Assembly (NCBI GenBank): GCA_028751875.1
Contig: CM054143.1
Coordinates: 67,789,194-67,853,193 of the forward strand
DNA length: 64,000 bases
Origin: Rapana venosa
Lineage: Eukaryota > Mollusca > Gastropoda > Neogastropoda > Muricidae
Direction: 5' to 3'
Shown here piece by piece: positions 19,105 to 59,245 of this stretch. The notes under the pieces were generated by a model that had not been told where the DNA came from, made no database searches, and worked only from the letters and a program-made list of their open reading frames with translations. The position numbers and the translations under genes are program-made. Position 1 is the first letter of the stretch. Every line of letters begins with the position of its first letter.

Positions 19105-22100
19105 GGGATCAGAAGTGAAGTGAAGCCAGACATCAGAAGTGAAGTGAAGCCAGACATCAGAAGTGAAGTGAAGTGAAGCCAGACATCAGAAGTGAAGTGA
19201 AGAGAAGCCAGACATCAGAAGTGAAGTGAAGAGAGGCCAGACATCAGAAGTGAAGTGAAGAGAGGCCAGACATCAGAAGTGAAGTGAAGCCAGACATCAA
19301 AAGTGAAGTGAAGTGAAGCCAGACATCAGAAGTGAACTAAAGAGAAGCCAGACATCAGAAGTGAAGAGAGGCCAGACATCAGAAGTGAAGTGAAGTAAAG
19401 CCAGACATCAGAAGTGAAGTGAAGAGAGGCCAGACATCAGAAGTGAAGTGAAGAGAGGCCAGACATCAGAAGTGAAGAGAAGAGAGGCCAGACATCAGAA
19501 GTGAAGAGAGGCCAGACATCAGAAGTGAAGAGAAGAGAGGCCAGACATCAGAAGTGAAGAGAAGAGAGGCCAGACATCAGAAGTGAAGAGAAGAGAGGCC
19601 AGACATCAGAAGTGAAGAGAGGCCAGACATCAGAAGTGAAGAGAGGCCAGACATCAGAAGTGAAGTGAAGAGAGGCCAGACATCAGAAGTGAAGTGAAGA
19701 GAGGCCAGACATCAGAAGTGAAGTGAAGAGAGGCCAGACATCAGAAGTGAAGAGAAGAGAGGCCAGACATCAGAAGTGAAGAGAGGCCAGACATCAGAAG
19801 TGAAGTGAAGAGAGGCCAGACATCAGAAGTGAAGAGAAGAGAGGCCAGACATCAGAAGTGAAGAGAGGCCAGACATCAGAAGTGAAGAGAAGAGAGGCCA
19901 GACATCAGAAGTGAAGAGAAGAGAGGCCAGACATCAGAAGTGAAGAGAAGAGAGGCCAGACATCAGAAGTGAAGAGAGGCCAGACATCAGAAGTGAAGAG
20001 AGGCCAGACATCAGAAGTGAAGTGAAGAGAGGCCAGACATCAGAAGTGAAGTGAAGAGAGGCCAGACATCAGAAGTGAAGAGAGGCCAGACATCAGAAGT
20101 GAAGTGAAGAGAGGCCAGACATCAGAAGTGAAGTGAAGAGAGGCCAGACATCAGAAGTGAAGAGAGGCCAGACATCAGAAGTGAAGAGAAGAGAGGCCAG
20201 ACATCAGAAGTGAAGAGAGGCCAGACATCAGAAGTGAAGAGAGGCCAGACATCAGAAGTGAAGAGAAGAGAGGCCAGACATCAGAAGTGAAGAGAGGCCA
20301 GACATCAGAAGTGAAGAGAGGCCAGACATCAGAAGTGAAGAGAACAGAGGCCAGACATCAGAAGTGAAGAGAGGCCAGACATCAGAAGTGAAGTGAAGAG
20401 AGGCCAGACATCAGAAGTGAAGTGAAGAGAGGCCAGACATCAGAAGTGAAGAGAGGCCAGACATCAGAAGTGAAGTGAAGAGAGGCCAGACATCAGAAGT
20501 GAAGAGAAGCCAGACATAAGAAGTGAAGTGAAGAGAGGCCAGACATCAGAAGTGAAGAGAAGCCAGACATCAGAAGTGAAGAGAAGCCAGACATCAGAAG
20601 TGAAGTGAAGAGAGGCCAGACATCAGAAGTGAAGTGAAGCCAGACATCAGAAGTGAAGTGAAGAGAGGCCAGACATCAGAAGTGAATAAAGAGAAGCCAG
20701 ACATCAGAAGTGAAGTGAAGAGAGGCCAGACATCAGAAGTGAAGAGAAGCCAGACATCAGAAGTGAAGAGAAGCCAGACATCAGAAGTGAAGAGAAGCCA
20801 GACATCAGAAGTGAAGAGAAGCCAGACATAAGAAGTGAAGTGAAGAGAGGCCAGACATCAGAAGTGAAGAGAAGCCAGACATCAGAAGTGAAGAGAGGCC
20901 AGACATCAGAAGTGAAGAGAAGCCAGACATAAGAAGTGAAGTGAAGAGAGGCCAGACATCAGAAGTGAAGAGAAGCCAGACATCAGAAGTGAAGAGAAGC
21001 CAGACATCAGAAGTGAAGTGAAGAGAGGCCAGACATCAGAAGTGAAGTGAAGCCAGACATCAGAAGTGAAGTGAAGAGAGGCCAGACATCAGAAGTGAAT
21101 AAAGAGAAGCCAGACATCAGAACTGAAGTGAAGCCAGACATCAGAAGTGAAGTGAAGTGAAGCCAGACATCAGAAGTGAAGTGAAGAGAAGCCAGACATC
21201 AGAACTGAAGTGAAGCCAGACATCAGAAGTGAAGTGAAGAGAAGCCAGACATCAGAAGTGAAGTGAAGTGAAGCCAGACATCAGAAGTGAAATGAAGAGA
21301 AGCCAGACATCAGAAGTGAATAAAGAGAAGCCAGACATCAGAAGTGAAGTGAAGCCAGACATCAGAAGTGAAGTGAAGTGAAGCCAGACATCAGAAGTGA
21401 AGTGAAGAGAAGCCAGACATCAGAAGTGAAGTGAAGAGAGGCCAGACATCAGAAGTGAAGTGAAGAGAGGCCAGACATCAGAACTGAAGTGAAGAGAAGC
21501 CAGACATCAGAAGTGAAGTAAAGCCAGACATCAGAAGTGAAGTGAAGAGAGGCCAGACATCAGAAGTGAAGTAAAGCCAGACATCAGAAGTGAACTAAAG
21601 AGAAGCCAGACATCAGAAGTGAAGTGAAGCCAGACATCAGAAGTGAAGAGAAGAGAGGCCAGACATCAGAAGTGAAGAGAAGAGAGGCCAGACATCAGAA
21701 GTGAAGTGAAGAGAAGCCAGACATCAAAAGTGAAGTGAAGAGAGGCCAGACATCAGAACTGAAGTGAAGAGAAGCCAGACATCAGAAGTGAAGTAAAGCC
21801 AGACATCAGAAGTGAAGTGAAGAGAGGCCAGACATCAGAAGTGAAGTAAAGCCAGACATCAGAAGTGAACTAAAGAGAAGCCAGACATCAGAAGTGAAGA
21901 GAAGCCAGACATCAGAAGTGAAGAGAAGCCAGACATCAGAAGTGAACTAAAGAGAAGCCAGACATCAGAAGTGAAGAGAGGCCAGACATCAGAAGTGAAG
22001 AGAAGCCAGACATCAGAAGTGAAGTGAAGAGAGGCCAGACATCAGAAGTGAAGAGAAGCCAGACATCAGAAGTGAAGAGAAGCCAGACATCAGAAGTGAA

Positions 22101-24600
22101 GTGAAGAGAAGCCAGACATCAGAAGTGAACCATGAAGAAGAAGCCAGACATCAGAAGTGAAGAGAGCAGACATAGAAGTGAAGAGAGAGCCAGACATCAG
22201 AAGTGAAGTGAAGAGAAGCCAGACATCAGAAGTGAAGTGAAGAGAGGCCAGACATCAGAAGTGAAGTGAAGAGAGGCCAGACATCAGAAGTGAGAGAAGA
22301 GAGGCCAGACATCAGAAGTGAAGAGAGGCCAGACATCAGAAGTGAAGAGAAGAGAGCCAGACATCAGAAGTGAAGAGAGGCCAGACATCAGAAGTGAGAG
22401 AAGTGAAGGCCAGACATCAGAAGTGAAGAGAAGAGAGCCAGACATCAGAAGTGGAAGAGAGGCCAGACATCAGAAGGTGAAGAGAGGCCAGACATCAGAA
22501 GTGAAGTGAAGAGAGGCCAGACATCAGAAGTGAAGTGAAGAGAGGCCAGACATCAGAAGTGAAGTGAAGAGAGGCCAGACATCAGAAGTGAAGTGAAGAG
22601 AGGCCAGACATCAGAAGTGAAGTGAAGAGAAGCCAGACATCAGAAGTGAAGTGAAGAGAAGCCAGACATCAGATGAAGTGAAGCCAGACATCAGAAGTGA
22701 AGAGAGCCAGACATCAGAAGTGAAGTGAAGAGAAGCCAGACATCAGAAGTGAAGAGAAGAGAGGCCAGACATCAGATGAAGAGAGCCAGACATCAGAAGT
22801 GAAGAGAGGCCAGACATCAGAAGTGAAGAGAAGAGAAGCCAGACATCAGAAGTGAAGAGAAGAGAGGCCAGACATCAGAAGTGAAGAGAAGCCAGACATC
22901 AGAAGTGAAGAGAAGAGAGGCCAGACATCAGAAGTGAAGAGAGGCCAGACATCAGAAGTGAAGAGAGGCCAGACATCAGAAGTGAAGAGAAGAGAGGCCA
23001 GACATCAGAAGTGAAGAGAGGCCAGACATCAGAAGTGAAGAGAAGAGAGGCCAGACATCAGAAGTGAAGTGAAGAGAGGCCAGACATCAGAAGTGAAGAG
23101 AGGCCAGACATCAGAAGTGAAAAGAGGCCAGACATCAGAAGTGAAGAGAAGAGAAGCCAGACATCAGAAGTGAAGAGAAGCCAGACATCAGAAGTGAAGT
23201 GAAGTGAAGCCAGACATCAGAAGTGAAGAGAGGCCAGACATCAGAAGTGAAGAGAAGCCAGACATCAGAAGTGAAGTGAAGAGAAGCCAGACATCAGAAG
23301 TGAAGTGAAGAGAAGCCAGACATCAGAAGTGAAGAGAAGCCAGACATCAGAAGTGAAGAGAAGCCAGACATCAGAAGTGAAGTGAAGAGAGGCCAGACAT
23401 CAGAACTGAAGTGAAGAGAGGCCAGACATCAGAACTGAAGTGAAGCCAGACATCAGAAGTGAAGAGAGGCCAGACATCAGAAGTGAAGAGAAGCCAGACA
23501 TCAGAAGTGAAGTGAAGTGAAGAGAGGCCAGACATCAGAAGTGAAGTGAAGTGAAGAGAGCCAGACATCAGAAGTGAAGTGAAGAGAGGCCAGACATCAG
23601 AAGTGAAGTGAAGCCAGACATCAGAAGTGAAGAGAAGCCAGACATCAGAAGTGAAGTGAAGCAGTGAAGTGAAGAAGCCAGACATCAGAAGTGAAGTGAA
23701 GCCAGACATCAGAAGTGAAGTGGAAGCCAGACATCAGAAGTGAAGAGAGCCAGGACATCAGAAGTGAAGAGAGAAGCCAGACATCAGAAGTGAAGAGAGA
23801 AGCCAGACTCAGAAGTGAAGTGAAGCCAGACATCAGAAGTGAAGTGAAGCCAGACATCAGAAGTGAAGGCAACATCAGAAGTGAAGTGAAGAGAGGCCAG
23901 ACATCAGAAGTGAAGGAAAGCCAGACATCGAAGTGAAGTGAAGAGAGCACACATCAGACAGCTCGAATAAGAGAAGCCAGACACAAAAGGAAGTGAAGCC
24001 AGACATCAGAAGTGAAAAAGAAGCCAGACATCAGAAGTGAAGTGAAGCCAGACATCAAAGTAGAAGAGAAGCCAGACATCAGAAGTGAAGTGAAGAGAAG
24101 CCAGACATCAGAGTGAAGGAAGAGAGGCAGACATCAGAAGTAAGAAGAAAGCCAGACATCAGAAGTGAAGTGAAGAGGCACAGACATCAGAATGAAGAGA
24201 AGCCAGACATCAGAATGAAGAGAGCCAGACATCAGAAGTGAAGAAAGACCAGACATCAGAAGTGAAAAAGAGAGCCAGACATCAGAAGTGAAGAGAAGCC
24301 AGACATCAGAAGTGAAGAGAAGCCAGACTCAGAAGTGAAGAAGAGAAGCCAGACATCAAAGTGAAGAAAGCCAACACAGAAGTGAAGAGAAGCACAGACA
24401 TCAGAAGTAAGAGAAGCCAACATCAGAAGTGAAGGAAGAGAGGCCAGACGCAGAAGTGCAGGGCAGGAATAGAAGTGATGAGCCAGACATCAAGTGATAA
24501 GAGAAGCCAGATCAGCAAGGTGAAGAGAAGCCAGACTCAGCAAGTGAACTGAGCAGACATCAAAGTGAAATAATGTGTAATGCCACATCCAGAAGTGAAT
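19105..24600. repeat. 5.5-kb modular satellite (14-bp core plus pentamer spacers)
   Basis: More than 200 units share the core GCCAGACATCAGAA followed by two to four pentamers drawn mainly from GTGAA, GAGAA and GAGAG (rarer CTAAA, GTAAA, CAGAG). Unit length therefore steps as 24, 29 or 34 bp. The left 3 kb is clean. From about 22130 single-base deletions appear, and from about 23640 they become dense until the array dissolves near 24600. Frames reading SEVKRGQTSEVK-like peptides are repeat translations. Confidence 0.95.
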
Positions 24601-35475: not shown

Positions 35476-35632
35476 ATGTCACAGTGCAAACAGACAGCCG
35501 AAGAGTTTGTTAAGAGTACGTTTAGTCCTCATGTCGCGGTATTATGTAGCCCTGATGCCGAGGTTTTGTGTCAGAAAAATAACTTGACTTTCCAGCAGTT
35601 GATACAGCCCTTCTGTCGTCTGTCGTCCGAAG
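35476..35632 (+). CDS. TRAPPC8: TRAPPC8 exon 1 (start codon exon)
   Basis: TRAPPC8 is a subunit specific to the TRAPPIII complex, a Rab1-activating tether in ER-Golgi traffic and autophagy. The exon encodes 52 residues plus one base: MSQCKQTAEEFVKSTFSPHV, then VAVLCSPDAEVLC, and LTFQQLIQPFCRLSSE. These match the known N-terminus of the animal family by pattern (M.QC...E, F.P.VA.LCS..AE, L.F..LL.PF.RL.SE). The start is chosen because the family begins at this MSQC/MAQC, and an in-frame upstream extension is not needed. Donor GTGAGA follows at 35633, leaving phase 1. The exon is intact, and the reading frame joins exon 2 as GTT (Val). Recognition is from memory of the family, not from a search. 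Confidence 0.9.
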
Positions 35633-37612: not shown

Positions 37613-37743
37613 TTCATATCCGGGATGCCAACAATGTGTCCCATTCCATCCATGGCCTGCACATCAAGGCCTGTGACATGGCCTCCCAGCCACTACAGCA
37701 GGCCGCCATACGCAAAATGCTCAGTGACACTGTTGTCAATGCT

Positions 37744-37780
<37 letters not shown>

Positions 37781-37840
37781 CGCTGGATGGGGGCCACACC
37801 AACGTCCTGTCCTTAGGCAACTATGACCTGCATCTGAACG
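37613..37840 (+). CDS. TRAPPC8: TRAPPC8 exon 2 with polyglutamine insert
   Basis: It encodes 76 codons' worth of sequence. VHIRDANNVSHSIHGLHIKA is followed by QPLQQAAIRKMLSDTVVNA, then 12 glutamines, then NVLSLGNYDLHLN. The family pattern VH.RDPNN, P...AIRK.L.D.V and NV...G.YDL is clear. The 12 consecutive CAG codons (37744-37779) fall where vertebrate proteins have a short variable linker without polyQ, as far as I recall. The acceptor is AG at 37611-37612. The donor is GTGGGT at 37841, phase 1, so the codon GCG (Ala) is completed by exon 3. The donor hexamer is weaker than the GTGAGT copies just downstream. The exon length (228) keeps frame with exon 1. Confidence 0.9.
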
Positions 37841-38113
37841 GTGGGTGTATTGATTTACATACATGTATACATCTGAGTGGTGAATGGTTAGATTTACATC
37901 TGCTAGTGAATGGTGAGTGTTAGGATTTAATCTGAACAGTTAGTGTTGGGATGAAAAAAATTAGCCGTGAGTGTTTGGATTTACATATAAATTTATAAAT
38001 CAACTGAATGGTGAATGTTTGGATTTACAAATTACATGTATACATCTGAACACTAAGTGTTTTGATTTACATCTGAATGGTGAGTGTTCTGACTTGCATC
38101 TGAACGGTGAGGG
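37831..38113 (+). repeat. Splice-donor minisatellite at 5' end of TRAPPC8 intron 2, main block
   Basis: Units of about 27 bp, CATCTGAATGGTGAGTGTTT + GGATTTA, repeat imperfectly from the last ten bases of exon 2 (CATCTGAACG) into the intron. Each unit carries a donor-like GGTGAGT or relative (GTGAAT 37880, GTGAGT 37913, GTGAGT 38080, GTGAGG 38107). The unit at 38091 reads GACTTGCATCTGAACGGTGA, nearly the exon's own GACCTGCATCTGAACGGTGG. Confidence 0.85.
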
Positions 38114-38114
38114 G

Positions 38115-38480
38115 TTCACCATTGATGAGAGATTTTTATATATATTATTATATATATATATAATATATGTTATATATTTGTGTGTGTGTGTGTGTGGTGT
38201 GACCGGTTTTGCCCACCATGAAGGTAGCCATGTTCGAACTTAGGAGTGTATATTGGGTATGTTCATGTTTCCGTAAGCTGCAGAATGCTGACATGGATTA
38301 TGGAATCTTTAACATGCATATTTGATCACCTGCATATACATGAAGAGAATTAAGACACTGGCAGGTCTGCACTTGAAGTTGACCTGGGAGATCGTAAAAA
38401 GCTCACCCTTAATTCACCAGTCATTGCGAAGATTTGAACCCATGACTTCAAACTCAATGGGTTGAAGTCAAACAATCTTA
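38115..38480. mobile_element. Insertion in intron 2: AT/GT microsatellite and unassigned retroposon
   Basis: TATA-rich and (GT)n sequence (38140-38198), then GACCGGTTTTGCCCACCATG and TTGACCTGGGAGATCGTAAA, and ATTTGAACCCATGACTTC, which looks like a SINE (possible box B complement). It separates parts of the donor minisatellite. Confidence 0.45.
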
Positions 38481-38545
38481 ACATCTGAACGATGAGTCAC
38501 TGAGTGTTTGGATTTACATCTGAATGGTGAGTGTTTCACATTTGT
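38481..38545 (+). repeat. Splice-donor minisatellite, second block
   Basis: ACATCTGAACGATGAGTCAC, then GTTTGGATTTACATCTGAAT and GGTGAGTGTTT (GTGAGT at 38527) are two more units displaced by the insertion to the left. Confidence 0.8.
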
Positions 38546-38569
38546 ATGCATTTAAAATGTGGACCATAA

Positions 38570-38985
38570 TACTAATAGCAGACATTGAAAAAAGGATACA
38601 GGCAATGGAGATGGTTCTTTCGCAAACCCCTTGGTATCTCATACAAAGATTACATCACTAATGAGGAAGTGACGGCCTGAATTAAAATGCCATTGGACCA
38701 TATGAAGAGCTCCTGACCAGTGAAAAGATGCAAACTAAAGACTAAAGTGGTTCGGGCACATCATATGAACATCTGGACTGGCCAAGACTGTCCTACAGGG
38801 AACAGTACGAGGAGGGAGACGAAGAGGCAACAGAGAAAACGATGGGAAGACAACATCAGAGAGTGGCCTGGTAACCTTGAATGGAACGCCTTGTACGGAA
38901 AGCAGAGGACCGCGGGGAGTGGAGGAAGCTGGTTGCAAAATCTTCATTAATGCCCCCACGGTCCAAGGACCTATGGGATATGGAT
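38570..38985 (+). mobile_element. RTE-like LINE 3' fragment in intron 2
   Basis: Broken frames give QRKRWEDNIREW near 38832 and RKAEDRGEWRKLVAKSSLMP and PRSKD near 38895-38965. This parallels the RTE-b end (WMDNIREW, RAEDRDGWRRL, PPRSRD) but is clearly another subfamily. It is 5'-truncated and sense-oriented relative to TRAPPC8. Confidence 0.8.
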
Positions 38986-38989
38986 GGAT

Positions 38990-39165
38990 CAGTGGTCTAG
39001 TGGTTACGCGCCTGCCTAGAAAGTGAAAAGTCCAATTCGGAAGTGTGTGGTGGTTCAGATCCCTTTTGGACCTGAAACTTTTCTCCCATCCATTAGACCA
39101 TGAGTGGTGGTTTGGGTGCTAGTCTTTTGGATGAGATGATAAACCAAGGTATAAAAAAAGGATAG
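38990..39165 (+). mobile_element. tRNA-derived SINE fragment in intron 2
   Basis: GTGGTCTAGTGGTTACGCGC (box A-like) and GTGGTTCAGATCCC (box B-like) are followed by the central-domain-like GATGAGATGATAAACCAAGG. It inserted directly behind the LINE fragment and is truncated at the 3' side. Confidence 0.65.
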
Positions 39166-39240
39166 GTGAGGTGAGTGTTCGGATAGTTAACATCTGAATG
39201 GTGATTGTTAGCAGTCATCTGCATCTGAATAGTGAGTGAC
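39166..39240 (+). repeat. Splice-donor minisatellite, third block
   Basis: GTGAGTGTTCGGATAGTTAA, CATCTGAATGGTGATTG and CATCTGAATAGTGAGTGAC are degenerate units of the same type. Confidence 0.65.
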
Positions 39241-39444
39241 AACTGATGAGAATGAAGCCAAAACTGCAGGTAGCTGTGTTCCTTGTATTGACTCTAAGGT
39301 TGACAGCTGAAGAGATTGAGGTCTGCTGTATAATAGTGAGACCTGTTACTACAATATTTACATGCTGTGGTATCTATTATGTAATTGTGAGGTCTATAAT
39401 AGGATAGTGTGTATATAATTCAGCACTGCATTTGAATGTCAGTC

Positions 39445-39842
39445 ATGTGTACTGTATGGTTTGAAGATGATAGGTGAGGATGTTTAGCACTGTGACTGAT
39501 TCAGTGATTGTGGATGTTTGTTACGTGTGCAGCGTGTGCCCCATGGTTTGAAGCTTGGTAGATGAGGATGTTTGGCACTGATTGTGAATTCATGTGTATC
39601 GTGTGTGCAGCGTGTGCCCCATGGTTTGAAGCTTGGTAGATAGGATGTTTGGCACTGATTGTGAATTCATGTGTATCGTGTGTGCAGCGTGTGCCCCATG
39701 GTTTGAAGCTTGGTAGATAGGATGTTTGGCACTGATTGTGAATTCATGTGTATCGTGTGTGCAGCGTGTGCCCCATGGTTTGAAGCTTGGTAGATGAGGA
39801 TGTTTGGCACTGATTGTGAATTCATGTGTATCGTGTGTGCAG
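39445..39842 (+). repeat. Splice-acceptor minisatellite at 3' end of TRAPPC8 intron 2
   Basis: Units of 77-78 bp contain GTGTGCAG, then CGTGTGCCCCATGGTTTGAA + GCTTGGTAG, then GATGTTTGGCACTGATTGTG. Acceptor-like AGs lie at 39531, 39609, 39686 and 39763, and the true one is at 39841. An older degenerate unit precedes (about 39445-39530). The exon-like part of each unit matches the first 26 bases of exon 3 with one substitution. Confidence 0.92.
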
Positions 39843-39932
39843 CGTGTGCCCCATGGTTCGAAGCTTGGCGGGACAGCTTTCTGCAGACCATGCCCTTGTC
39901 AGACCATGAATACCTCAACACCTGTCTGGCCT
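39843..39932 (+). CDS. TRAPPC8: TRAPPC8 exon 3 (3' end uncertain)
   Basis: After acceptor AG at 39841-39842 the sequence encodes (A)CAPWFEAWRDSFLQTMPLS and DHEYLNTCLAC. The family pattern is PWFE..R..FL..MP..DHE.LN..LACM. It is in phase with exon 2 (G+CG gives Ala). The frame stays open to a TAG at 39968 but diverges from the family after LNTCLACI, so the exon probably ends near GTATCC at 39933 (one base of the Cys codon left). A later donor cannot be excluded. The next expected segment was not found in the remaining 24 kb, which may be intron or unresolved sequence. Confidence 0.85.
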
Positions 39933-45949: not shown

Positions 45950-47945
45950 TATAATTCATGCTAAAATAAATATTATTATCAACTCCAAATAAATATCACA
46001 TCCCCCAGCTCCCGCCACTAACCTTTGCACAAACCCTCCCTCTTTAAAACATTCATACTTCCCCAACCTACCTACCCCTCCACACAACCCTAACATCCCC
46101 CCCACCATGTCTTCTCATACTAATCAAATAAATAAAAAAACCTACAATCTAACCCATCCCAATATCATTAAACATCATAACCCCACCCCCCAACAAAATC
46201 CCAAAACACATATCCCCCACACCAACATATACCTTCCATACAAATACAATAATGACATATTTTCAAACCCTACAGACATTTATCCCCCAAAATACTCTAC
46301 CCATATTTGCACCCATCCCTTTCCAATTAATAATTGACGATTAAAATAACCTATATAGGATCAAAGTCATCACTACAACATCCTACCACTTTTTCCAACC
46401 CCCATCACCAGTCCCACCCTCACAAACAATACCCCTAAGTCTCCCCAGACAAACTAATCTCAGTCCCCCCAGTCCCCGACATACATCCCGCCATCCCATT
46501 GATAATCAACTCATCATCAACTTACACCCCCCCAAAATTACCAACCAAAATACACAACAGTGCAATCAACTAATCCCCCCCAACACCCTTCCCCCAAATC
46601 CCACTCACCACTTCTAACCCCCACCCCCAAACCCATATGCAACAACTACAATCCTCCCCTACTCACCACCCCCATATTATTACCACCAGCTTGTCCCAAA
46701 TAAGATTCCATTTTATTACATTAATCCCCCCCCCCATAGATAACCTCCACACACCCCTCATATCCCATTGATATCCAAAACAAAAATCCCCCCCAATACT
46801 ATTAATATCTCCCCCTACATTACAATAAAATAAACCATCAAAAACACTTACCTTATCCTATATACATCATCCCATATCCTCAATACAAAACTTACCTCCA
46901 CAGCACACTATTCTTTAGAATCAAGACATAACCCTACAAGCACACAACTTACCCTACCAACCAAAATCAGCCAAGCCTGCCCAACACATCCCCCCTTCCC
47001 ACCCCAAGAACATATACCCACCGTCATGTACTACACCACCCCCATCCATCCTTCCACCTCCCCCTACAAATTCATACCCAAACCTCACATAATAGACCAA
47101 CCACCCAACAACTCCTTCACCCTAACTTCCCCGATAGAACCGTCCTTACAACTACCCTACGCCCCCCTCCACTAACCCTACCTATGTGCACGCAGTTAAC
47201 CCCCCCCCAAAAAACCCCTCCCCCCCATATCTCTCATACCCACACAACTCCCAATCACTCAACCATCAAATCCCGCATCATTACATATTACTCAAATAGC
47301 ATACCCCCACTCCAACCGATACCATAACTATGTCACTAATCCCCACCCGATTGTATCAAACAACACTAGTTCGTACAACTCCTACCTTTATATACCCACC
47401 AATTATCTAATCACCCCACATTTAGAGCCATCAAGTTCTACCCCACCCAAAAATCCCCCCCCCAAAATATCATTACCAAAAACCTCACCATTTACATCCA
47501 CACACAACCCAACCAACTCCCCCATTTATCAATAATCAAACAATCCACCAACTGTTTCCAAAACAGACTTAGCCCAGCTACTACCTCACAACAATAACTC
47601 ACCATATCACACTATTACTATACCTTCCTTATCATATAAAATCATCTCACTCTATACAACAACCCAGACAACAACACATAAAAACCCAATTACCTTCCAT
47701 TTTAACATCAACCCACACCAAAACTTATATCCACCCATATTAAACTCTATTACACACAACACTCACACATATTATCCCCAATAGACCTTCCCCCTATAAT
47801 ACCACCCTACCTAACATCCCTTTCCAAAAAAACCCCCTACCCCACCAACCCCCCCCCCGCCCCCCCACCCCCCCTCCCCCCCCCCCAACCCCCCCTCCCC
47901 TCTCCCCCCCCACCCACCCCCCCCCCCCCCCCCCCCCCCCCTACA
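45950..47945. other. 2-kb strand almost lacking G, ending in poly-C
   Basis: The + strand is made of C, A and T with very few G. Runs such as CCCCCC and AACCC are common, but there is no clear tandem period. It ends in C homopolymers at 47850-47940. No coding content is visible. It may be a degraded C-rich satellite or an unreliable read stretch. Confidence 0.7.
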
Positions 47946-47954
47946 CACACCCCC

Positions 47955-49560
47955 CCTGTTCCATTTATTGACCTTGAAAAAGATTGCTTCTATTTAACAG
48001 GACTTGGGTTGTGACTATTCTCCATAGAACATGTGTGAACGGTAAATTAATTATGAGGTTGAGAGCATATGTATCAGAATGTCAGCAGTAATAACGAATG
48101 TTAGAACTAAAGGTTAGTGACTGACTCATTAACTATACTGTACTTACTGGTGTTAAACCGGGTGATGTATGTAGCCCCTTTTGTTTTGTTCTTTGTCAAT
48201 GAGTTAGGCCAGAGTACGGTTCATCAATTATGGTAAAATGGTCTGCCAGAGCATTCCCAAGTGATTTCACAGAGTTGCTTATTCTTCTGCTTGCTGATGA
48301 TGTTATCCTGCTTATCCAAAACTGTTGTAGGCTTTACAAAAGCAGTTAAATAGCTAAAACAGTGCTCGCAACATCACTGATCTTAAGGTTAATCTGAATA
48401 AGTAGTAATTTCATTGTATTCATCGACAGGTGGTTATTTATCTACTCATGAAAAATGGTTGTTATCAATGAAACGTCTTGACTTGTGATTATGTGTATAT
48501 AAATATTTAGTGAAATCTGTTTTTCTACCAAGCTTACTGCAGTGTAAGATTGGCAAGTCGAGGTTAAATGAGCTTGTGTTATGTGTTGAAAAAACTACGA
48601 ACATTGAATGATAATTCTTTTACTTGTTCCTTCATATAGGTGATGCACAATGTACAACCTCGACATATGATATATCGGTGCAGAAATTGGGCTTAAGATG
48701 CGAGCTGTAACACAGTTGTGAATTCAGTGCACCTCTTTGCGTTAAGCATTTTTAGGCTCTAGCATATGACGTACACCTAAGATCTTGTTATTAGTGAAAA
48801 GCTAATAGATATCCTTCTTTCTGTTAATGCTGCTGTACGATGCACTTAGATATTGGATTAAGTATCGATATGTATTGAAAAGACAGGCTACATTTTAATC
48901 CTTATAAGATGATATTGATCTAGATGTCAGATAGGAACAAACAACTGGCGACAACAAATACGTACTCTGTGTTGTGAACTAGGGTATTGGATTTTTTTGG
49001 GCCTCAATCAAGATGTCGGGAAATTGTTGAAAGTTTCTTAACGCGTTTCAGCGCTAAAGAGTATTGTAATTGATTCTGCCGGCGTGGCTCAGCAAACTGA
49101 AGTTGATCATATTACAGAGCATTGGAGAAGATTTCATAAGTACAAACCAATTTATATTAAGTGCGATGTGTCAATACCTTATCTAAAACTATGATATGGA
49201 TTTTACATTGATAAAAGAGATTATGTCAAGGCTTAGACTTGTGTATCAGTATTAAATGTTCATAAATTCTGATTACAGAGAACTATGATATTGATGACCT
49301 CAGGCGGTATTGCCCTGTGTTTTGAAAGCAAGCACTGGGAGGATGAAATGACGTACTTTGTGTTGTGCTGTTCCGTATTTGAGGATGTTTCGGCAGAATA
49401 CATCCCGGGAAAGTATAATAGACATCAGGCCTATTTGATTAGACTCCGTTTACTCTGGCATCTCTAAGGTCATCTTGGGCGTGTTCATGGACCTGCTCTC
49501 ACTGTTTATATGTGTGTAAAAGCTTGCAGAAGAGACGGAGATGCTTGTTATCCGTAAAGG
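47955..49560 (+). mobile_element. LINE reverse transcriptase relic, substitution-rich
   Basis: + strand blocks in order are PFIDLEKDCF near 47962 (degraded F.D..KAF block), GVKPGDVCSPF near 48150 (GV.QG...SP block), ELLILLLADDVILLIQ near 48280 with the ADD catalytic block, a FSTKLT-like stretch near 48510, and a C-terminal stretch of LRLVYQY, CVLKAS and KYNRHQAY type from 49220 to 49460. Stops arise mostly by substitution rather than indel, so this is a genuinely old copy. A 60-codon open piece remains at 49285-49467. Confidence 0.75.
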
Positions 49561-49664
49561 CAGTTGTTTGGCTAGCGGGTAGCTTTTGGTGTTACAGGAA
49601 CAGTTTATCGGGACTTATGGCGTTTACCCCTCCAGGATAGACATTTGCACGTGCGGTTAATCCA

Positions 49665-50630
49665 ATACCATGGTTGGGGGCGCGAGTCTGGGCAGGGTGG
49701 GGTGTTTGTGTGCATGGCGTAGGGGGTGGGGGAGGCGAGCGCGAGACGCGAGGCGCGGGCGCTGCTGCGCGCGCGGCCGAGCGGAGACGAGCGCGCGCGA
49801 GAGCGACAGCTCTGGCTGGGCGCGCCGCGCGCGGCGGCGCGACGCGCGCGGCGCGAGAGACGAGGTCGATTCGTACGCGCCGCGGGCGCGCTGAAGCCGC
49901 CGAGAGTCCGGGCGAGGGTTGAGAAGGCACACCCCGCCCCAGCGGCTGCAGCGGGCGCAGGCGGCATTGTGAAGCTGGACAGGCGGGCGAAGTGTAGCTG
50001 CCACCGGCTCAAGTTGAGGGAGGGCCGGCGGAAGGTGGTCGGTGGCGTCTCAGTGGCTCGGCACCGCATCCCAGGGGTGAATCCGCGGCTGATGGAATCA
50101 GGGGGGGGGCGTGGAATAACATATTCAACATAGGCCGGTTTGAATTGGGAGGAAGCCCGCATCTCCCCCGCACGGCGACCGGAAGGGCGAGGGGGGGGGG
50201 CCAGGGAACGGAGGGAGGAGGGGCAGTCCGACCCGTTTGCGGACAGAGCGACTCCTTTCGTGAAAGAGCTAGGGATCAGGGGGAGAGCGTCCGGTTGCCC
50301 TGTGCCCCCGCCCGACCACCGCGCAGCCACACCTGCAGGCGACGCGTGGACGCGTATGGGTAACCAGGCCAGGCAACACCATCACCCGGGACTGGTATAG
50401 CCACGCTCGCGTAGAGGAGTCCCTGCGACCACTCTGGGACGTTGTGGCGGCTCGCTGGGGCTCGTATGTCCCGACTGAGCGGGTTCGGTGCGGTCGATCT
50501 TGGTCGGCGCAGCTGGAGTCGTCGAGCCGCGCGCGGTACGCAGCGAGCGGTGCGCGCGGCCCGTCGCGGCTGCATCTGTGTCGCTCGCGCGTTAGTCCGC
50601 TGGCGGTCGGGGCTGCTCTCGCTCATGCGC
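49665..50630. promoter_or_regulatory. CpG-dense island
   Basis: About 950 bp very rich in GCGC and CG dinucleotides, with GCGCGCGCGGCCGAGCGGAG near 49770. It is sharply bounded by AT-rich DNA. Opposing long frames (241 codons minus; 135 plus) exist because GC-rich sequence lacks stops; none has recognisable motifs. It could be an unmethylated promoter island of an unidentified gene, or a foreign or rDNA-spacer-like piece. Confidence 0.5.
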
Positions 50631-52640
50631 TTGTCTTTTTTTTATATTTTTTGTGACAGTGTCCCTTGTGCTTATTACTGATTAAGTGCAACACAGGGTT
50701 AGTCCTCTCTTGTTGTATATATTTTGCTATGGTAATTTATAAATATTATATCCTTTCTTCGTCCTCGCGCTCAGTATCTACTGTACCGTCGTTGTTTTTT
50801 TGCTGGCATTTTTTTTTATTCTTCGCTTTGCATATAAAAAAAAAAAAAAATAAAATATAAAGTAAAAAAAAAGAGATTATTAAATAAAAATTATAATTTT
50901 CAATAGACAAGCAGAAGAGAAGATAAGAAATGCGGAGAGAACTATTGGCGAGAGGTTGTTACTTGTGAAGCTAAATACTTTTTAATTGTCCCTTTCATGA
51001 GGTGTGGTGGTGTCCGGTGGTGGGCTGCTGTCTGGGTGAATTATGCCCCCTGGGTTCTTTTTTTTTCATTCTGTTTAAGCAGGAGTCTTGCTGTCGTCAA
51101 GAGCTTACCTGCCAGGCATTCCTGGTGCCGGGACTCTCTTTTTGGTCCCGGAACGGCCCCTTCTTTTTCTAAAATCAGTATCTTTTAGATAAATCTCATA
51201 CCTACTTGACACCAATAACGACCTTTTTTTGTTACCCCAAAGAACGGTTGCACATTAGCTTGCACTTTGCAAATCTCTGTGTCTATCCAACACTACAGCG
51301 CTGCTTTGCTGAGATCGTGCCACTGGGTGACACTGGTTTGGTCTTCATACTCAGTTAAAATTCCTCATCGTCTTCTTTTGTTCAAAAGCCCTTTTTATCA
51401 TGTAGATCATGGCCATTACGTGTGGTCTGAGCAATGACCGCCATATTATGTTTAGGTGTGAGTGTGCATATTAAGTAGAGTTAACTGCATGTCAAAAATA
51501 GATGTTGTTACTTATTCATTATCTTATTTATCGTACACGAGGAGAAATCACACTGACGAGATTGCAGGCTCCAGCAAGAGTGCGCATGCTCATGCAATGC
51601 GAGTTCCAACTTTGTGTCCGTCTGGACTCTGTATGTTAGCACAGTATTCGTGAAACTTCAATTGGTGCTTTGTTGAGTGAGCAGATTTGTCTGAATATAT
51701 TCTAGTTATTTTATATAGGGCTAGATTTCATGTTGTGGTATATTTTGTTTTTCTCTTCTGTGTGAATTGTGACTACGCTCATCAAACAATCGCTTCTGGA
51801 GATTGGCTTTATTTTATATCACAATTGTTTTAAGTTTTAGAAGCCTTTTGGTAGCTCAAGCTTTTCTGCCCGTGGGAACTTAGTTTTCCATTGCCTATGC
51901 GAGCCCTTGCCGGTGGCAACAAAGCCACATTAAGCTGAGTGGAAAAAGATAAAAATAATCTGCCACTGGTTGTGTGCATTTGTACAAATATCAATATGCA
52001 ATAGAATGGAGAATCTTGGGAAAGCTCCACTTGCCCAAAGGGGCATACACGTCTTCCTAAACTTAAGCGTTGAAACTACAACGGATGAAGTTGAGCAATC
52101 ATCTCAAGCTTCTTTGGCTTACGGCAAAAGAAATACACCATTAGTGTGATGGGGACAAAACAAGACAGTAAGCATAAACATTGACTCTTTGTCCAATGAT
52201 AGTATCTGGGGAGTCTGCATTTCAATATAAGGACAGAAAAATGACAACGACAATGTTCATTTGAGAGTTTTGAGGATGGAAGCCTATCAATAGAATTGGA
52301 CAATTGAGCTTGATGTTGGCCGAGCTGCAGGGCAGACAGTTTCGCGTCAGTTCATGATGAAGCTTGGCAACCAAGCAGTTTTTAAGGAATCTTGTTTGAC
52401 AGAAAAGTAAAAAAATGCTGTTAGAAAAAAGCAGTTTGCGAAGCACCTTGTGTTAAATTGTGTGTGCCCTTGCCGACGAGTAACTCAGTGGGTATGGAAG
52501 CCGTGCCAACCAACACAGGAAGAGGCGGACTCCTGATTGGGCATCACACAAGTGTCTCTGGCTTTGGGAGGACCAAACGACGCAAAACTCCATCATGTGC
52601 CTCTCACAGCAACCCCCTAAACAGGGTTGTATGATTCCTC
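50631..52640. other. Unassigned AT-rich region
   Basis: Poly-A/T runs at 50830-50890. Otherwise unique-looking DNA; no conserved exon, transposon block or tandem repeat recognised. Confidence 0.5.
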
Positions 52641-52758
52641 CAATTGTGGAGGACATCTCTGCTTGTCTGTCTCAGTGACAAGTACATGAGCCCCGGTGTC
52701 TTTATGGAGAGGGACACTAAAGAAGAAGTCCATAATTCACGGATTAAAAGCTTGGTAT

Positions 52759-53298
52759 TCAGATTTCCGTTTTCCAATGTTTGCCACCTTTGTCCAAGAT
52801 CCTACAACGACAGTAGGCACACGCACAAAGCTTAAACACCTGCTGCTGTCGGTGAGAATTTGTGCAACATTCTCTAAAAAAAATCAGATGCCTCACGTAA
52901 TTTTTGCGCGAAAGGCAGGTTTGCAATACCTTTCTTTTCCTGGCAAGCCATGAGGTTGTCAGGCCCTGGACTGTTGTGTCCCCGCGAAATATGAAAGTGG
53001 GCAATTCCACCGAAAATGTATCACAGTAGAACCGTGACAGTGTGCCCATTGTGGGTCTTTGGATAAGAACAATACTGTGAGCCAGACTGTCAGAGTATGG
53101 ACAGTGTACCTGATATGTCCTGGAAAAAAATGGACACTTGAGCATGCAGAAGTGGGAGTCCAGTAGTGGGGATATAAGAACCCAAACTAAAAGAATGCTG
53201 ATGATGGTAAAAACGTGTCTTTCACCACGGCTGCTGTGAGAGTTGAAGGCAGAACTCTCCTTGCCTGTCCACATTATCACACATGGTTGATGCCGCAC
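52759..53298 (-). other. Unassigned 179-codon open frame
   Basis: The longest non-repetitive open frame in the right half. It contains LSRFYCDTFSVELPTFIFRG and CRCRILDKGGKHWKTE, with many Cys, Ser and His and no domain I recognise. The opposite strand also has open pieces (52644-52835, 52696-52953). A decayed transposon ORF is the likeliest reading; a real gene is possible but unsupported. Confidence 0.25.
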
Positions 53299-54435
53299 AA
53301 CATGTTACAGCCATCTAAAAAAAACCATCCTGCTAAATGGATGGCTGATTGATATAATGTATGACTTTATAGTAAACTTGCTGCTGTTTCAAGATGTAGC
53401 TCCTAGGGATCCTTTGGGAACCTGGCAGCAAGTAACTATTCACCTCATGGTTCGTTTATTAACTTGCCCTAAGGAGTCAAAGTGATATCATCTCACAGTC
53501 ATAAACATTCATTTCCTGATTTTAATTTAAAGCATGTCTTATAGATGCTGTACCACCTTATGAGGTCATGGCTATTAAACGTAAATTGTTGTCAGGAGAA
53601 ATTGTCATCAGAAAAGCTTTTAAGCTTTGGGTCATGATTTCTTTGTCTCAATTGTTTGTAGGTTGTCATTAGTATAGCCTGCGTAGGCAATCTGTATTGA
53701 GATAGGATCTAAAATTTGGCAACCACAGAAAAGTTCTATTTTTATAGTGATGCATGGGGATCACAGTGAGACACTTAATGTTGGACCATGCCAGTGCACA
53801 ATACAACATTGTGTGGTCCTTGTGTACTTTATTTTATTTCTTCATATCGTTACTTTGTTCTATGCAGTAGTCCCAAACTGCTGTGAATTTCTTGTGCAGG
53901 CCACATTGCCTACATGTGGGTTTGGGACTCGGAGAGATTTTCAAAAAAAAAAACCCCCCCCAGGCCCCTGAATTTTTTTTATTTTAAAATTTTTTTGAAT
54001 TTTTTTCCCCTTTTTGTTCCTTACGGGGTTATTTCCCCTTTGTTTGTGTTGTTTTTTTTTGAATTTTTTTGTGTTTAAAAAAATGAAATGTAACTTTTAT
54101 TTTTTGTTTGTTTCCCTTTGCGAATTTTCCCGATGATTAAAAATTTTTTTGTTGTTATCAAATTCCTTATTAGGGGGGTGCTAAAGGGGGAAATTCAAAA
54201 TGCCGCTTGTAACTGTAAGGGGAACCCGGCCCAATGAAAAGGCCTGTTCGTGGGTCCTTGGCCTGCCGCCCCCAGCATTTGGCGTGGCCCCAGGTACGTT
54301 TTCGGCCCCTTCCCCCAAAAAGGGGGGTTTTTCCGGGGGGCATTCTCCCCCCCTGCTGGAAAAGGGGGCAGCAGGTCAGTGCCCCCAGGCGGGTTTCTGG
54401 GGGTGGGGGCCCCTTTTTTTGCTTCGGGGTTTTTC
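53299..54435. other. Unassigned; quality falls after 53940
   Basis: Up to 53940 the sequence is ordinary AT-rich DNA. After that, homopolymer runs of T, A, G and C lengthen abruptly and stay so to the window end. Confidence 0.6.
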
Positions 54436-54439
54436 CCTT

Positions 54440-54545
54440 TTTTTTTTCTTTTTTTTAGCCCTGAAAAAGTTTGCTTTAGATGGTAATTGAAAAAATTGTG
54501 CAACTGCTTTTTTTGCATCAGCCATCCATTAAAAAAAAAAATCTA
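54440..54545. mobile_element. Dispersed repeat family D, degraded copy 3
   Basis: TTTAGATGGTAATTGAAAAA, GTGCAACTGCTTTTTTTGCA and TCAGCCATCCATTAAAA parallel 9772-9835 with extra and changed bases. Confidence 0.6.
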
Positions 54546-54869
54546 TATGTGCCCTTCCCAGACTAATGAGTCATTTCCCCACCCGGCTTTTTTCATTTTT
54601 TTATGTGTTTAAAATGTACTTTGAATGCTCTTTTTTGGTAAAAAAGTTTTAAAATTGGATATTTAGTTTCTGAGATATGGGGTTAAAAATGCGAATCCCT
54701 GTGGCGGCCCCATTTTGAGAAATAAAGGGAAATGAATCAAAATTTGAAATGTTAGTTTTTCCCTTAGAACCCAAAGTTCAATCTTCATGAAATTTGCTGT
54801 GATTAATCAAAAAACAGTACAGCTTTTGTGGGTGTTGTGAATTGTGTCAAATACAAAACATTTTTTTAC

Positions 54870-56850
54870 CATCGGGTCGTGATGCCCATCAATTTCTGGG
54901 GGGGGTAATTTTTGTGGGTCGAAGAGACTTATTGGCAATCCGCGTTTTGAAAAGTTCTTGAGCAGTATGGGCGGGGTATAGTGGTTGCTTTTTGGGACTT
55001 GGGGTCTCTGTTTGCCTGTGTTGCTCAGCTGTCGCAATTTGTTTGCTTTGGGCCCTTTGGGCCCGGGGTCGGCTCGCCACTGTGGCCTTCCCCTTTCTGT
55101 GTCCCTGGTTTATCTCAAAGTTTAAAGGGTTTCAGTGAGGGCTTTCAGAGTTCCTTGAAAAGGGTTTTTCTGGGCCCCCCTGGGAGCGCTTTTTATGCTG
55201 AAATTTGCCAAACAGAAGTTTTTTGGGGGCCGATGGTCTGGCATGGAATACATTGCCTGCCCCGCGAAGTGGGTTTCATCAGGATGGTGTGGATGGGGAA
55301 GGTTTGCTCTAGTGAGCCCCCGGCTGGGATCTTGTCCGCCACTTTTGCCAAACAGTTTTTCAAAAAAGGTGGTGTGGAAGGGTTGCTTTTTGCTGGGGTT
55401 GGTAGCTGTCCGACTCTGGCCTAGGCAGGGTGGTGAGCATACGCTTTTTGACCTTGATTTTGGTTTCTGTTGAGATGCCTCTCCCGTTCCCCACATTCTT
55501 TCAAGTTGCCAAAGGCAGCGCTTGCTTTGGCGAGTTGGTGTTGACTCATCTCAACGGCTTCCGTGGGAAAGAGGGTACTCCCAAGATAAGAAATTTTTTG
55601 TCCCTGCTTTGAGTCTTGCCTTTTTCGGAGTTTTTTGGGTTTTAAGTGGGCTTCCCGGGGGTGGTTGGTGCATTACCTCGTCTTTTGGTTTGATTGTCAA
55701 CCCAAAAGTTGTGCAAGCATAAGACTTGTCAACATGTTTTTGCATGTCGGTTAAAGCGCATTTGAGGGCCCCCAAAATCAGCAAACAGGAAGTCGTTGAT
55801 GATATTGTTGGACCTTTTTTTTGTTAAAGCCCCCTGAGTTGAAAGTGAACCCCCTTTCCTGTCCCCTGATGCTGTCCAACATTCGAATACTGAACGCATC
55901 TGACGCTTTTTGCCAAAAAACATGGGTGAAAACGGGGGTGGGAGCAAGAACCACCCCTGTTCACTGTTGGTGAGGGGAAGGGTTCAGATCCCTCTCGTTG
56001 TTTGTACTCTGGCCAGCAAATCATGGAATGACGTTACGTGGCGTAAATTTTTCTTGGGCAGCCGACTTCGCCGATTCTCTAGACCCTTCTGCTAACGTTT
56101 GAAGGCCTTTGGTAGATCAAAAAAGGGGGAGTAGAGGTCGTGTTTTGTTTTTTGAAAATTTCTCTTAGATTTCCCGTCCCGCGACCCTTTCCAAAAGGCC
56201 ACTTTGGGACTCTCGGGAAAGAAGGTCTTGCCCCAAAGGGGGCTATGGGGGGGTTTCAGCAGTACTTGGCCAGGGCCCTTGCTGTGAGGGGACAGCAGGG
56301 ATATTCCTCGGGGGGTTGTCACAGGCCTGGCGATTTGTTTTTATTTTGATTTTATAATGGAGGCTTTTTTAAAGTTTGGGGAAAGTGTCTCATGCTGCCA
56401 TACAACTTGGAAGCATGAAGTTTTTTCAGTCAGGCTCTGCCCCCCCCCTTTGTAAAACCCCGCGGGGGGATTGAGTCTGTCCCCGGGTTGCTTTCCCATT
56501 GGACAGCGGGCGAATTCCCTTTTGGTTTCTCCTAAAAGGTTGGTATGGCAAAAAGGGGTTCGTGGGACGGGGAACTTGGGGGGGGAAGGGTTTTTAGTTT
56601 AATTGTTGATGGTGGGGCGGTTTAGAAACTTTTGTCAAAATGTTCCCCCCCATCTCTAAAGGACCCTTGTCTTTGTCAGTTTTGGAGTAGACCCTTTCTG
56701 CACTGAGGGGGGATGGTGTTTTTTTGATTTTGGTGGGCCTTAGTCTCTTTGGTCCATCATGGAAGTTTTTTCCATTTTTTTTCCCTATCGAAATTTTCCT
56801 GGATCTCATCTGCTTTAGTTGTGTGTTATGCTGTTTTAGTTGGGATTGTT
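54870..56850 (-). mobile_element. LINE with C-terminal C2H2 zinc finger, minus strand, frameshifted
   Basis: The minus strand order from 56850 is KKFHD/LLSAE-like linker near 56800-56690, HRGISLLS-like block near 56310, DLYSPFFDLPKAFK near 56130 (first catalytic block), VINDFLFADF near 55800 (second catalytic block, one D lost), FGLTIKPKDEVMHQPPPGSP near 55690, a PKKLLFGKFQHKKRSQGG-like block near 55200, and RIATAEQHRQ near 55050. The last block has a degraded C..C....F......L...H zinc finger (PRPYCSRTFQNADC) near 54970. Homopolymer indels break every block. The single ORF combines endonuclease, reverse transcriptase and a nucleic-acid-binding finger in this group. Confidence 0.8.
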
Positions 56851-57370
56851 GTGTTACGTATGTCGTTGTGCTGTGTGCTTTTGCTTTTGTCAATTGTGCT
56901 GTGCTATGTCATTTTGTGTTTGTGTGGTGCTTTGTCATTTTGGTGCTGTGTGCTGTGCTTTTTGTTTTTGTGCTGTGCGTGCTATGTCAGTTGTGCTGTG
57001 CTGTGTCAGTTTTTCCTGTGCTGTGCTATGTCATTTTTTAGTGTGCGGTGTATGTCGTTTTTTCCTGTGTGTGGGGATGTTAGTTCCCCTGTTTTTGGTA
57101 CGATCACGTCTGTTGTCCTCTGTGTTTTTTTGGGCTGTCAGTTGTCTTGGGTTTTTTGGGGCAGAGTTTTTTATCTGGTGGTCCCCTTTCAGCAGTTGTG
57201 TGTTGTTCTTTCAGCGTTGTTGTGCAAGGGCGTTAATTGGGTTTTGCGTGGGGTTGGTGAAACCCTTTCCTCCTTTTTTCCCAAAAGGTCACCCGGCCGT
57301 GTGTGGGGTTTTTGTGTGTGTTTTGGGGGTGTTTTGTGTGTGTGTGGTGTGTTGTGTGCCCGGCAGAGGG
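56815..57370. repeat. GTGCTGTG-rich degenerate tandem repeat
   Basis: TGTGCTGTGCTATGTCATTT-like units fill 56860-57075, then GT-rich sequence to 57360. It is the complement-like counterpart of the CAGCACA repeat at 385-765. The 290-codon frame across it is an artefact. Confidence 0.7.
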
Positions 57371-57611
57371 GGGTTGTACCGAGCATGAAGGCCCCCTTTG
57401 GGGCCCAGATCTGCCCCTGCTTTCAAGGGGGAAAAATCTCGGGTCCCCCGAAACCCCGGACCGCTGAAGACTGGGCCCTTTTTCCCTTTCCGGGCCCCTG
57501 GAGCCAAAATTTCCCCCCCAAAAAAAGCGGAAAAAACGGTTTAGGGGTTTTTTTTTTCCCCCACCCCAGTGGTTTGTTTGGGGATGATTTTTTGTCTGTT
57601 TTAAGGGGGTC

Positions 57612-57675
57612 AAAAATGTAAAAAATGGAATTTATTTAGCGCAAAATCTTGCAAAAACAAATCAAAGCGCTTGCT
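57612..57675 (-). mobile_element. CR1-like (family B) 3'-end stub
   Basis: AAAAATGGAATTTATTTAGC, GCAAAATCTTGC and AAATCAAAGCGCTTGC match the family B terminus in reverse. Confidence 0.75.
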
Positions 57676-58165
57676 TTCCTCCTTTCTTAACCATGGGAAC
57701 AAATTCAATTAATAGTTTGTAAAATTTCAAATGGTTTTACACTACGCGCAAACAAAACGCTGCGCGCCCCACACACACAACACACAACCCGGGTGTGGCG
57801 ACACAGAGGTTGTGTACTTTGGAGGGTGGTGGGGGTTTGGCTGTTGTGGGTTTAAAGGGCCCGAAATGGATGAAACAAGAGGGGGGAAAATTTTGATTTT
57901 TAAATTAAAAGTGTTTTTAGGTGGATTTAAAAGTTGCCTAAATTGGTTTTTGGGGAAAAGGGGAGGGGAGGTTTATTCCGATAACTGGACCCGAAAAAAA
58001 GAGAAAGAACAATTTATTTAACAGGGATAAGACTTTTTTTGGGGTTTTTTACCTAAAAAAGAAAGGCTTCGTTTTATCTGCATTTGCAGTACTTGTTTGT
58101 TTATCATTTTGGTTTTTGGGAAGGCAAAATAGGCTATTAATCAAAAGAAGGCAGTTTTTTTTGAG
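57676..58165. other. Unassigned, poorly resolved sequence
   Basis: Homopolymer-rich. It follows the family B stub and may be more of the same 3' UTR, but nothing can be named. Confidence 0.4.
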
Positions 58166-58169
58166 TTTT

Positions 58170-58620
58170 ACTGCTAAGATTGAGTCATTGATAAAATGGG
58201 GGGTTTGATGGCGATTTTTTCTTGTGGGTAAGTGGGCAGTGTAGAGAGGAAAGAACGGGCCCGACTGATCCCTGTGGGACCCCCACTTTTCCCCGTTTGG
58301 GTGTGTTGAATCTTTGTTACGTAACCCGTTTGGAATTGGGGGTTTGTGGGTAATGAAATTAAAAAAGGTGAGGGCTGAGTCTTTAATACCAAAAAGTTTT
58401 GGAGACGGGGAGAAAATTTGAATGGCACATGTCGAAGGCTGCAGAAAGCGAGAAGGTGAGGAGGGAAGATTTTTCCTGAATTGGACACATGTGAAGCGTG
58501 TTTAACATGGGGATAGGGTTTCGGTACTGGGGTTTGGGCACGATATGAACGAAAAAGGGGGGAAGGGAGATTTTTTGGAAGAAGATGGCTTTGAGGTGCT
58601 GTGGACAATGATGGGCCTAA
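58170..58620 (-). mobile_element. CR1-like LINE reverse transcriptase fragment, minus strand
   Basis: On the minus strand, frames combine to AFCSLRHVPF (LSAAFD block) near 58445, a LFGIK-like and ITHKP-like stretch, and a GVPQGSV-like GGPTGISRARSFLSTLP near 58290, which is the VPQGS.LGP.LF..Y block. Indels break the frame. Confidence 0.65.
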
Positions 58621-58939
58621 AATGATGTCCGTTTTATCAAGCCATTTTTTCTACTTCCATGATATTTCAGAGTGTCCCATTCCCCAGCATATTCCCACAG
58701 TCCAGAAATCTTAAAATTGCTTGAATGCCTAGAAAAAAAAACTCAATTGCTTAGAAAAGTTAAAATTTGGCCAAATACTTAGATCCGTGGTACAAAGGAT
58801 TGTGAAAAAAGTCTCTTCAAAAAATCCCCAGCAAAGACCAAAATACCTAGCTTTTTTTAAAAAAATTTCTTTGAAAAAAAAGGATGTATTTTTTGAGGGG
58901 TTTTGTATCCTGGATAAAAAATATAGGGGCCACCTGGTG

Positions 58940-59245
58940 TGGTGGTGTTCCAATGATAAACTGTAAACAAAATATTGTATTTAAAAATGTATGGCGTGGG
59001 GGATGTAAACAGTGGTGTGATGTTGAAACATGGTGTGATGTTATGTAAAAAAATGTGATGTTATTTGGGAAAGTGGGGTTATTGGAAAGTGTTTTTTGTA
59101 GAAAAGTTTCTGCGTGTGATTGATGTAATGTTATAAAGAGTGGGGGGTTATGTAATAAGAATACAGTGTGATGTATGGTGGTGTTTGTAAAAATGGGGGA
59201 ATATGCGATGTATAGGGTTATTCAACATATGTGAAAGGTTATGGT
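58940..59245. repeat. GTGTGATGTTATGT-type degenerate minisatellite
   Basis: TGTGATGTTATGTAAAAA and GGTGTGATGTT phrases recur with varying spacing. Confidence 0.6.

Follow-up and report, generated by a model that had tools for sequence, protein, structure and literature searches.

Exon-edge minisatellites resembling lancelet mirages at both ends of one intron of a predicted TRAPPC8 gene in Rapana venosa

Introduction

Minisatellites that extend across an intron-exon boundary have been described from lancelets as mirages, and according to the available sections of PMC3087553 the 5′ as well as the 3′ boundary can be involved. The same sections report RT-PCR and Adh3 data from amphioxus, which suggest that regular splicing is not interfered with, and propose a model of intron gain. 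For the lancelet PGBD5 gene, the available text of PMC3902484 describes repeats of 60 bp and 108 bp at exons 3 and 4, with 2 versus 7 and 3 versus 6 units in two sequence versions, and names TnC as a further case. Excerpts of other papers describe related structures. The units of a minisatellite in human IFI6 (6-16/G1P3) are copies of a splice site (PMC4526556), a potato gene contains a duplication across one intron-exon boundary (PMC4974935), and internal tandem repeats of human segmental duplications alter where exons and introns end and are able to activate cryptic splice sites (PMC2812944).

Here we describe an array of the mirage kind, previously described from lancelets, in a predicted TRAPPC8 gene of the mollusc Rapana venosa. 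It lies in a window of 64,000 nucleotides, the whole stretch of DNA that was analysed, at 67.8 Mb on the 71.3-Mb contig C10 of a 2.28-Gb genome. As in amphioxus BflGb6, where the unit comprises an intron 3′ end and the 5′ part of exon 2, the array is homogenised inside and not at its border, and splice signals are copied with it (PMC3087553, available sections); as in PGBD5, two such arrays occur in one gene (PMC3902484, available text). The units of 77–78 bp differ in length from those given in these partial texts for BflGb6 (150–160 bp), Adh3 (10–72 bp) and PGBD5 (60 and 108 bp). In contrast to the lancelet examples (Adh3; the globins BflGb6 and BflGb9; PGBD5; TnC), the arrays presented here belong to a mollusc TRAPPC8 gene and affect both ends of one intron, and in contrast to IFI6, where according to the excerpt the array is made of donors and its units are used, the array before exon 3 consists of acceptors. 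In the potato gene a new intron arose, according to the excerpt, whereas none is shown in TRAPPC8, and the repeats in the available part of PMC2812944 were compared among human paralogs themselves and are not exon-edge copies. No report of exon-edge arrays in a mollusc was found in the accessible text of the open-licence literature searched, and outside any dedicated literature search we met, in similarly partial texts, no report of edge arrays at both ends of one intron.

Results

The host gene

Profile and protein similarity identify the host gene as a predicted TRAPPC8 (Trs85). In a profile search, PF12739 matched 104 residues of exons 2 and 3 with 32.1 bits (8.8e-8), which lies above the curated cut-off of 26.7 and within the TRAPPC8/Trs85 family. 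Further PF12739 matches in the genome comprise one exon on contig C21 and, on C10, exon 1 plus two later exons. A protein search found 18 homologous proteins, with Tegillarca, Elysia, Capitella and Lingula as named organisms. Exons 1, 2 and 3 joined to exon 4 form a single open frame, and the exons align with relatives. The coding part of exon 1 (35476–35632, forward strand like all features of the window given below) extends from the ATG to the donor GAAG/GTGAGA and is supported by homology to P0002 and P0005. Exon 2 (37613–37840; donor AACG/GTGGGT) was placed by homology and frame and is followed by intron 2 (37841–39842; 2002 nt), which carries exon-edge arrays at either end. The real exon 3 (39843–39932; 90 nt) has phase 1 at both ends and a weak donor, GCCT/GTATCC; it was placed by homology and because it joins exon 4, on C21, in frame. 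A search of solved structures with exons 1–3 gave four weak matches (E of 0.59 or worse), PF24545, the Ig-like domain of TRAPPC8, had no match in a search in which its controls matched nowhere either, and ARAGORN found no tRNA at 38400–39500.

An array of acceptor-edge copies before exon 3

The 3′ end of intron 2 contains four extra copies, each comprising the 3′ splice site and 26 bases from the start of exon 3. The decoy acceptors start at 39533, 39611, 39688 and 39765 and the real exon at 39843, a spacing of 78/77/77/78, which confirms in coordinates and spacing what an earlier note on this DNA had described, namely four units of 77–78 bp with an AG and about 26 exon 3 bases. Each unit combines 51–52 nt of intron with 26 nt of exon and thereby spans one splice boundary, as mirage units do. 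Unit 1 (39533–39610, 78 bp), which is preceded by an AG and whose 26-nt exon copy is followed by TAG, is identical to unit 4 (39765–39842, 78 bp), the last 52 nt of which are the real 3′ splice site. Unit 2 (39611–39687, 77 bp) is identical to unit 3 (39688–39764, 77 bp). The two pairs differ at one base, and this single difference explains the lengths of 77 and 78 bp. Tandem Repeats Finder assigned the array a score of 667 with 98% matches.

The copies are very similar to the real site. Over the 26 exonic nucleotides the sole difference is position +17, which is T in all four decoys and C in the real exon (a synonymous change). Decoys 2–4 are identical to the real acceptor over at least −46 to +16, and decoy 1 has just 8 nt upstream in common with it. 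A CTGAT motif resembling a branch point, with its A at −30, is present in decoys 2–4 and at the real site, with no AG between motif and acceptor; in decoy 1 the CTGAT lies at −34 with one intervening AG, so this decoy may be weaker. Splice scoring of the acceptors was considered and dropped as pointless for decoys 2–4, which do not differ from the real site at the scored positions. Since these decoys are locally the same as the real site, the choice between them must rest on context, that is, on the exon beyond +26 and the distance to the exon 3 donor. Use of a decoy would lengthen exon 3 from 90 nt to 168, 245, 322 or 400 nt.

After joining to exon 2, each of the four decoys reads NACAPWFEAW and then TAG, so that the earlier statement that every decoy gives ACAPWFEAW followed by a stop held in four of four cases. 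The further statement that the last unit alone continues with the real exon was likewise borne out, as in mirages, by the in-frame run of 39843–39932 into exon 4.

In addition, an older, degenerate copy without an acceptor and without the first exonic bases, which is missing from the earlier note, aligns to the unit at about 39456–39532 with a score of 51, a value reached by 0 of 500 shuffles. The four newer units are alike but for one base and the copies at the border are diverged. The diverged old copy beside a homogeneous centre, together with the C at +17 of the real exon that is absent from every decoy, forms a pattern of concerted evolution that spares the border of the cluster, as is reported for amphioxus BflGb6.

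The old copy also contains a donor-like sequence, TAG/GTGAGG at 39474, which scores above the real exon 2 donor on the matrix used for all donor scoring. Such a site would suit the idea that the array supplies material from which introns are gained or exons altered, with a decoy unit becoming a new exon or shifting an exon start. The available sections of PMC3087553 offer a model and an example in amphioxus globins, and in the excerpt of PMC4974935 the duplicated boundary of the potato gene gave a new intron. At this position, however, the four newer units carry GGTAGATGAGG or GGTAGATAGG and lack the donor. We regard this reading as unlikely; it concerns long-term consequences and is compatible with an origin as a minisatellite.

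A separate array of donor-edge copies behind exon 2

At its other end, intron 2 holds 11 copies of the end of exon 2 and its donor between 37870 and 39222 (at least 12 of 17 positions alike), with the GT in register in nine of them; the exceptions are the copies at 38043 and 38482. Seven copies of CATCTGAAYG/GTGAGTG form the main stretch (37870–38113), and further copies lie at 38482, 38517, 39191 and 39222. As background, the rest of the window (61,958 nt once both arrays are excluded) has 15 matches of the same quality (at least 12 of 17) on the same strand. Chance could account for single weak copies but not for their cluster. A dispersed repeat (38541–38980; 39 genome matches at 84–88%, with the best 40 of 15,938 candidates scored) sits between the copies, and the donor-edge array is therefore probably older than its insertion. 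In the next 200 kb downstream (L002–L021), the 17-mer of the exon 2 donor edge has 115 matches on the same strand and 21 on the other, an excess on the plus strand that perhaps reflects GT-rich arrays on the transcribed strand.

A link between the two arrays of intron 2 was considered and rejected, as their mutual score of 16 compares with a shuffle mean of 16.8. The earlier note had proposed independent exon-edge arrays at both ends of the intron, and this stands: both are real and their mutual score is at shuffle level.

Besides the real donor, seven sites in intron 2 score at least as high as the real exon 2 donor, and four of these are exon-edge copies. The density of such donor-like sites is 3.5 per kb in intron 2; two further stretches of the window, taken for comparison, have 0.9 and 0.5 per kb, and the opposite strand of intron 2 has 0.5 per kb. 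The donor of exon 3 scores poorly on the same matrix. With seven rival donor-like sites and a poor exon 3 donor score, accurate splicing is not obvious from the sequence. The first two donor decoys would extend exon 2 in frame by 39 or 72 nt (13 or 24 residues) without a stop, and the later ones run into a stop.

Quality of the assembly around the array

Starting at 48,161, the window aligns collinearly, at 75–77%, with cleanly read sequence on C21 in which exon 4 is located. Most differences are one-base gaps, and transversions exceed transitions (352 versus 128 in the longest block), so that they resemble read errors. This part of TRAPPC8 occurs twice, in an error-rich version at 48161–62681 of the window, where exon 4 is unreadable, and in a clean version at C21:36530996–36545690 (L026–L028), after a run of N; the duplicated stretch looks like a misplaced piece. 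Positions 46001–48000, which adjoin the error-rich zone, contain 4% G and 42% C and are probably bad consensus. The window is of raw-read quality from about 46 kb onward.

Poor assembly so close by could mean that the assembler invented or multiplied the repeats. Several observations speak against such an artefact. Exons 1–3 are free of frameshifts, base-identical units (1 and 4, 2 and 3) are not expected of a noisy consensus whose noise begins about 6 kb downstream, the order 78/77/77/78 with a diverged old copy is unlike simple stutter, and arrays of the same kind occur at other loci (CCT8, HSP60; see below). We consider an artefact very improbable and trust the array because it lies about 6 kb before the error zone, among exons that read cleanly. 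The possibility that the locus occurs a second time in an array-free form was dismissed, since the acceptor array matches its own genome at one place. A search of the genome with intron 2 and part of exon 2 returned one full-length match and 44 other rows, consisting of 39 matches to the dispersed repeat and five short pieces (best 40 of 15,938 candidates).

Local copies at other exon edges

Tandem arrays of period at least 15 make up 18% of the window; in the 200 kb that follow, their share is 35%. One array of a unit of about 29 bp extends over 5.3 kb at 19112–24458. When random 67-nt anchors were searched for a local copy, 16 of 111 had one at positions 1–45,900 of the window (two of these inside intron 2), as did 39 of 105 in the next region tested.

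For comparison with other genes, we examined 27 of 47 chaperonin matches and five of 72 myosin matches, taking the ends of the domain matches as approximate exon ends and flanks of 200–600 nt depending on the locus (up to 600 nt for all exons in the edge test that included TRAPPC8). Matches with internal stops were otherwise avoided; one further chaperonin exon (L044, the first), which has one, was tested without a match and, having too little flank, stands outside the edge count. The 27 chaperonin exons showed a local copy at four of 54 edges, and real exon bases were included at two of them (CCT8 and HSP60). Intronic anchors in the same loci had local repeats more often, in 41 of 281 cases, and these 41 fall in 10 of the 27 loci. 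In this small survey, in which the intronic anchors are not independent of each other, exon edges are not enriched over introns for local copies, and exon-edge arrays look like a by-product of repeat turnover.

In CCT8 (theta; L051 on C19), copies of the acceptor edge TTTCAG/GACTC start at 357 and 386, before the real start at 419, in TG-rich sequence. The decoy at +33 would add 11 residues in frame without a stop, and the one at +62 shifts the frame. In HSP60 (L060 on C6), the real donor edge ends at 431 and is followed by copies with ends at 527 and 591; the decoy at +96 would add 32 aspartate-rich residues in frame, and the next one hits a stop. Among six TRAPPC8 exons, exon bases were copied at three of 12 edges, namely at both ends of intron 2 and at a later exon (L022, 1272–1514, on C10), where diverged upstream copies of the acceptor edge agree at 31 and 27 of 38 positions and the next best at 20. 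The share of three of 12 edges in TRAPPC8, compared with two of 54 in the chaperonins, tells against a fully uniform spread of such copies; the gene may be special or may simply lie in a repeat-rich place.

The five myosin exons gave a match at three of 10 edges, comprising one of low complexity, one intronic and one apparent decayed exon copy. Several candidates were rejected as edge arrays. In a myosin locus on the reverse strand of C2 (L066), the upstream copy of the exon start seemingly continues, by eye, into more of the exon in decayed form. A 27-bp array by a CCT exon on C33 (L038) begins 15 nt past the donor and includes no exon bases, the matches at L050 and L065 are intronic, and that at L062 is G-rich and of low complexity. 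Some myosin matches, among them G000:C3:43640755-43642317, lie in very long open frames (2305, 1998 and 1501 residues), perhaps stop-free intronic repeat arrays.

Exon-edge arrays thus seem not to be rare in this genome. The earlier judgement that independent arrays at both ends of one intron are very unusual is not supported in view of the lancelet mirages (PMC3087553 and PMC3902484, as far as their available text goes) and of the recurrence in CCT8, HSP60 and another TRAPPC8 intron. In view of similar copies at other exon edges and of the lancelet precedent, the array looks like everyday turnover of repeats and not like a designed switch.

Discussion

We consider it likely that the array before exon 3 is a minisatellite in which an exon edge became trapped, as in the amphioxus mirages, and that it reflects ordinary repeat turnover; from the sequence pattern we infer the mechanism of duplication, the splice choice and neutrality. 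The array may have started with a tandem duplication that had one breakpoint within exon 3, 26 nt from its start, and the other in the intron, 52 nt before the acceptor. Unequal exchange or slippage would then have amplified and homogenised the unit, so that four decoy acceptors and one defunct relic remain, and a separate event of like kind probably copied the donor (5′) edge of exon 2. TRAPPC8 is assumed to be spliced normally. Most transcripts would probably be spliced to the true exon 3 by exon definition, a choice favoured because the last unit alone is followed by the full exon and has the exon 3 donor at a distance of 90 nt. In 1986, Reed and Maniatis reportedly found that the choice between duplicated splice sites depends on exon sequence and proximity. 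Occasional use of a decoy would lead to a stop codon and transcript decay, which would represent noise and not regulation.

Poison exons are coupled to nonsense-mediated decay, and the acceptor decoys resemble them in that their use would bring an early stop in four of four cases; they differ in that the evidence for them consists of genomic sequence. The likeness suggests a brake, in which the decoys compete with the true acceptor, their products decay and the copy number sets the amount of surviving TRAPPC8 mRNA. The uniform stop after NACAPWFEAW would suit such a brake, as would the equality of decoys 2–4 with the real site from −46 to +16, including the CTGAT at −30 without an intervening AG, and the repeat units of human IFI6 are used as alternative donors according to the excerpt of PMC4526556. 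The stops, however, carry little information. When single duplications of the exon 3 edge were simulated with 20–52 nt of intron and 5–60 nt of exon, 1265 of 1848 hypothetical cases gave a frameshift or stop, so that a stop is likely to be close to the default outcome of such a duplication. Since the units are copies of each other, the four decoy stops count as one event. Nor are stops general: some decoys read through in frame, adding 13 or 24 residues on the donor side of intron 2, 11 in CCT8 and 32 in HSP60. The lancelet analogues, in the available parts of PMC3087553 and PMC3902484, are moreover reported not to disturb splicing. We therefore find a brake highly unlikely.

A bolder reading would join these elements into a genome-wide class of mutable splice-site ladders, in which the TRAPPC8 copy number, which may vary between individuals or cells, sets mRNA survival and the in-frame decoys of CCT8 and HSP60 give variants in protein length. 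It may be speculated along these lines, and we give the idea very little credence.

Returning to the minisatellite explanation, if our survey holds, mirages are common in a mollusc genome, and the literature reached, in its available text, places them in lancelets only. They would then be a general product of minisatellite-rich genomes, and one that brings splice sites into competition, causes annotation errors and possibly leads to intron gain. Acceptors that are nearly identical and differ in downstream exon context alone would be a natural experiment on splice-site choice by the spliceosome. Within the same gene, exon 2 contains 12 CAG codons at 37744–37779, possibly a variable glutamine tract.
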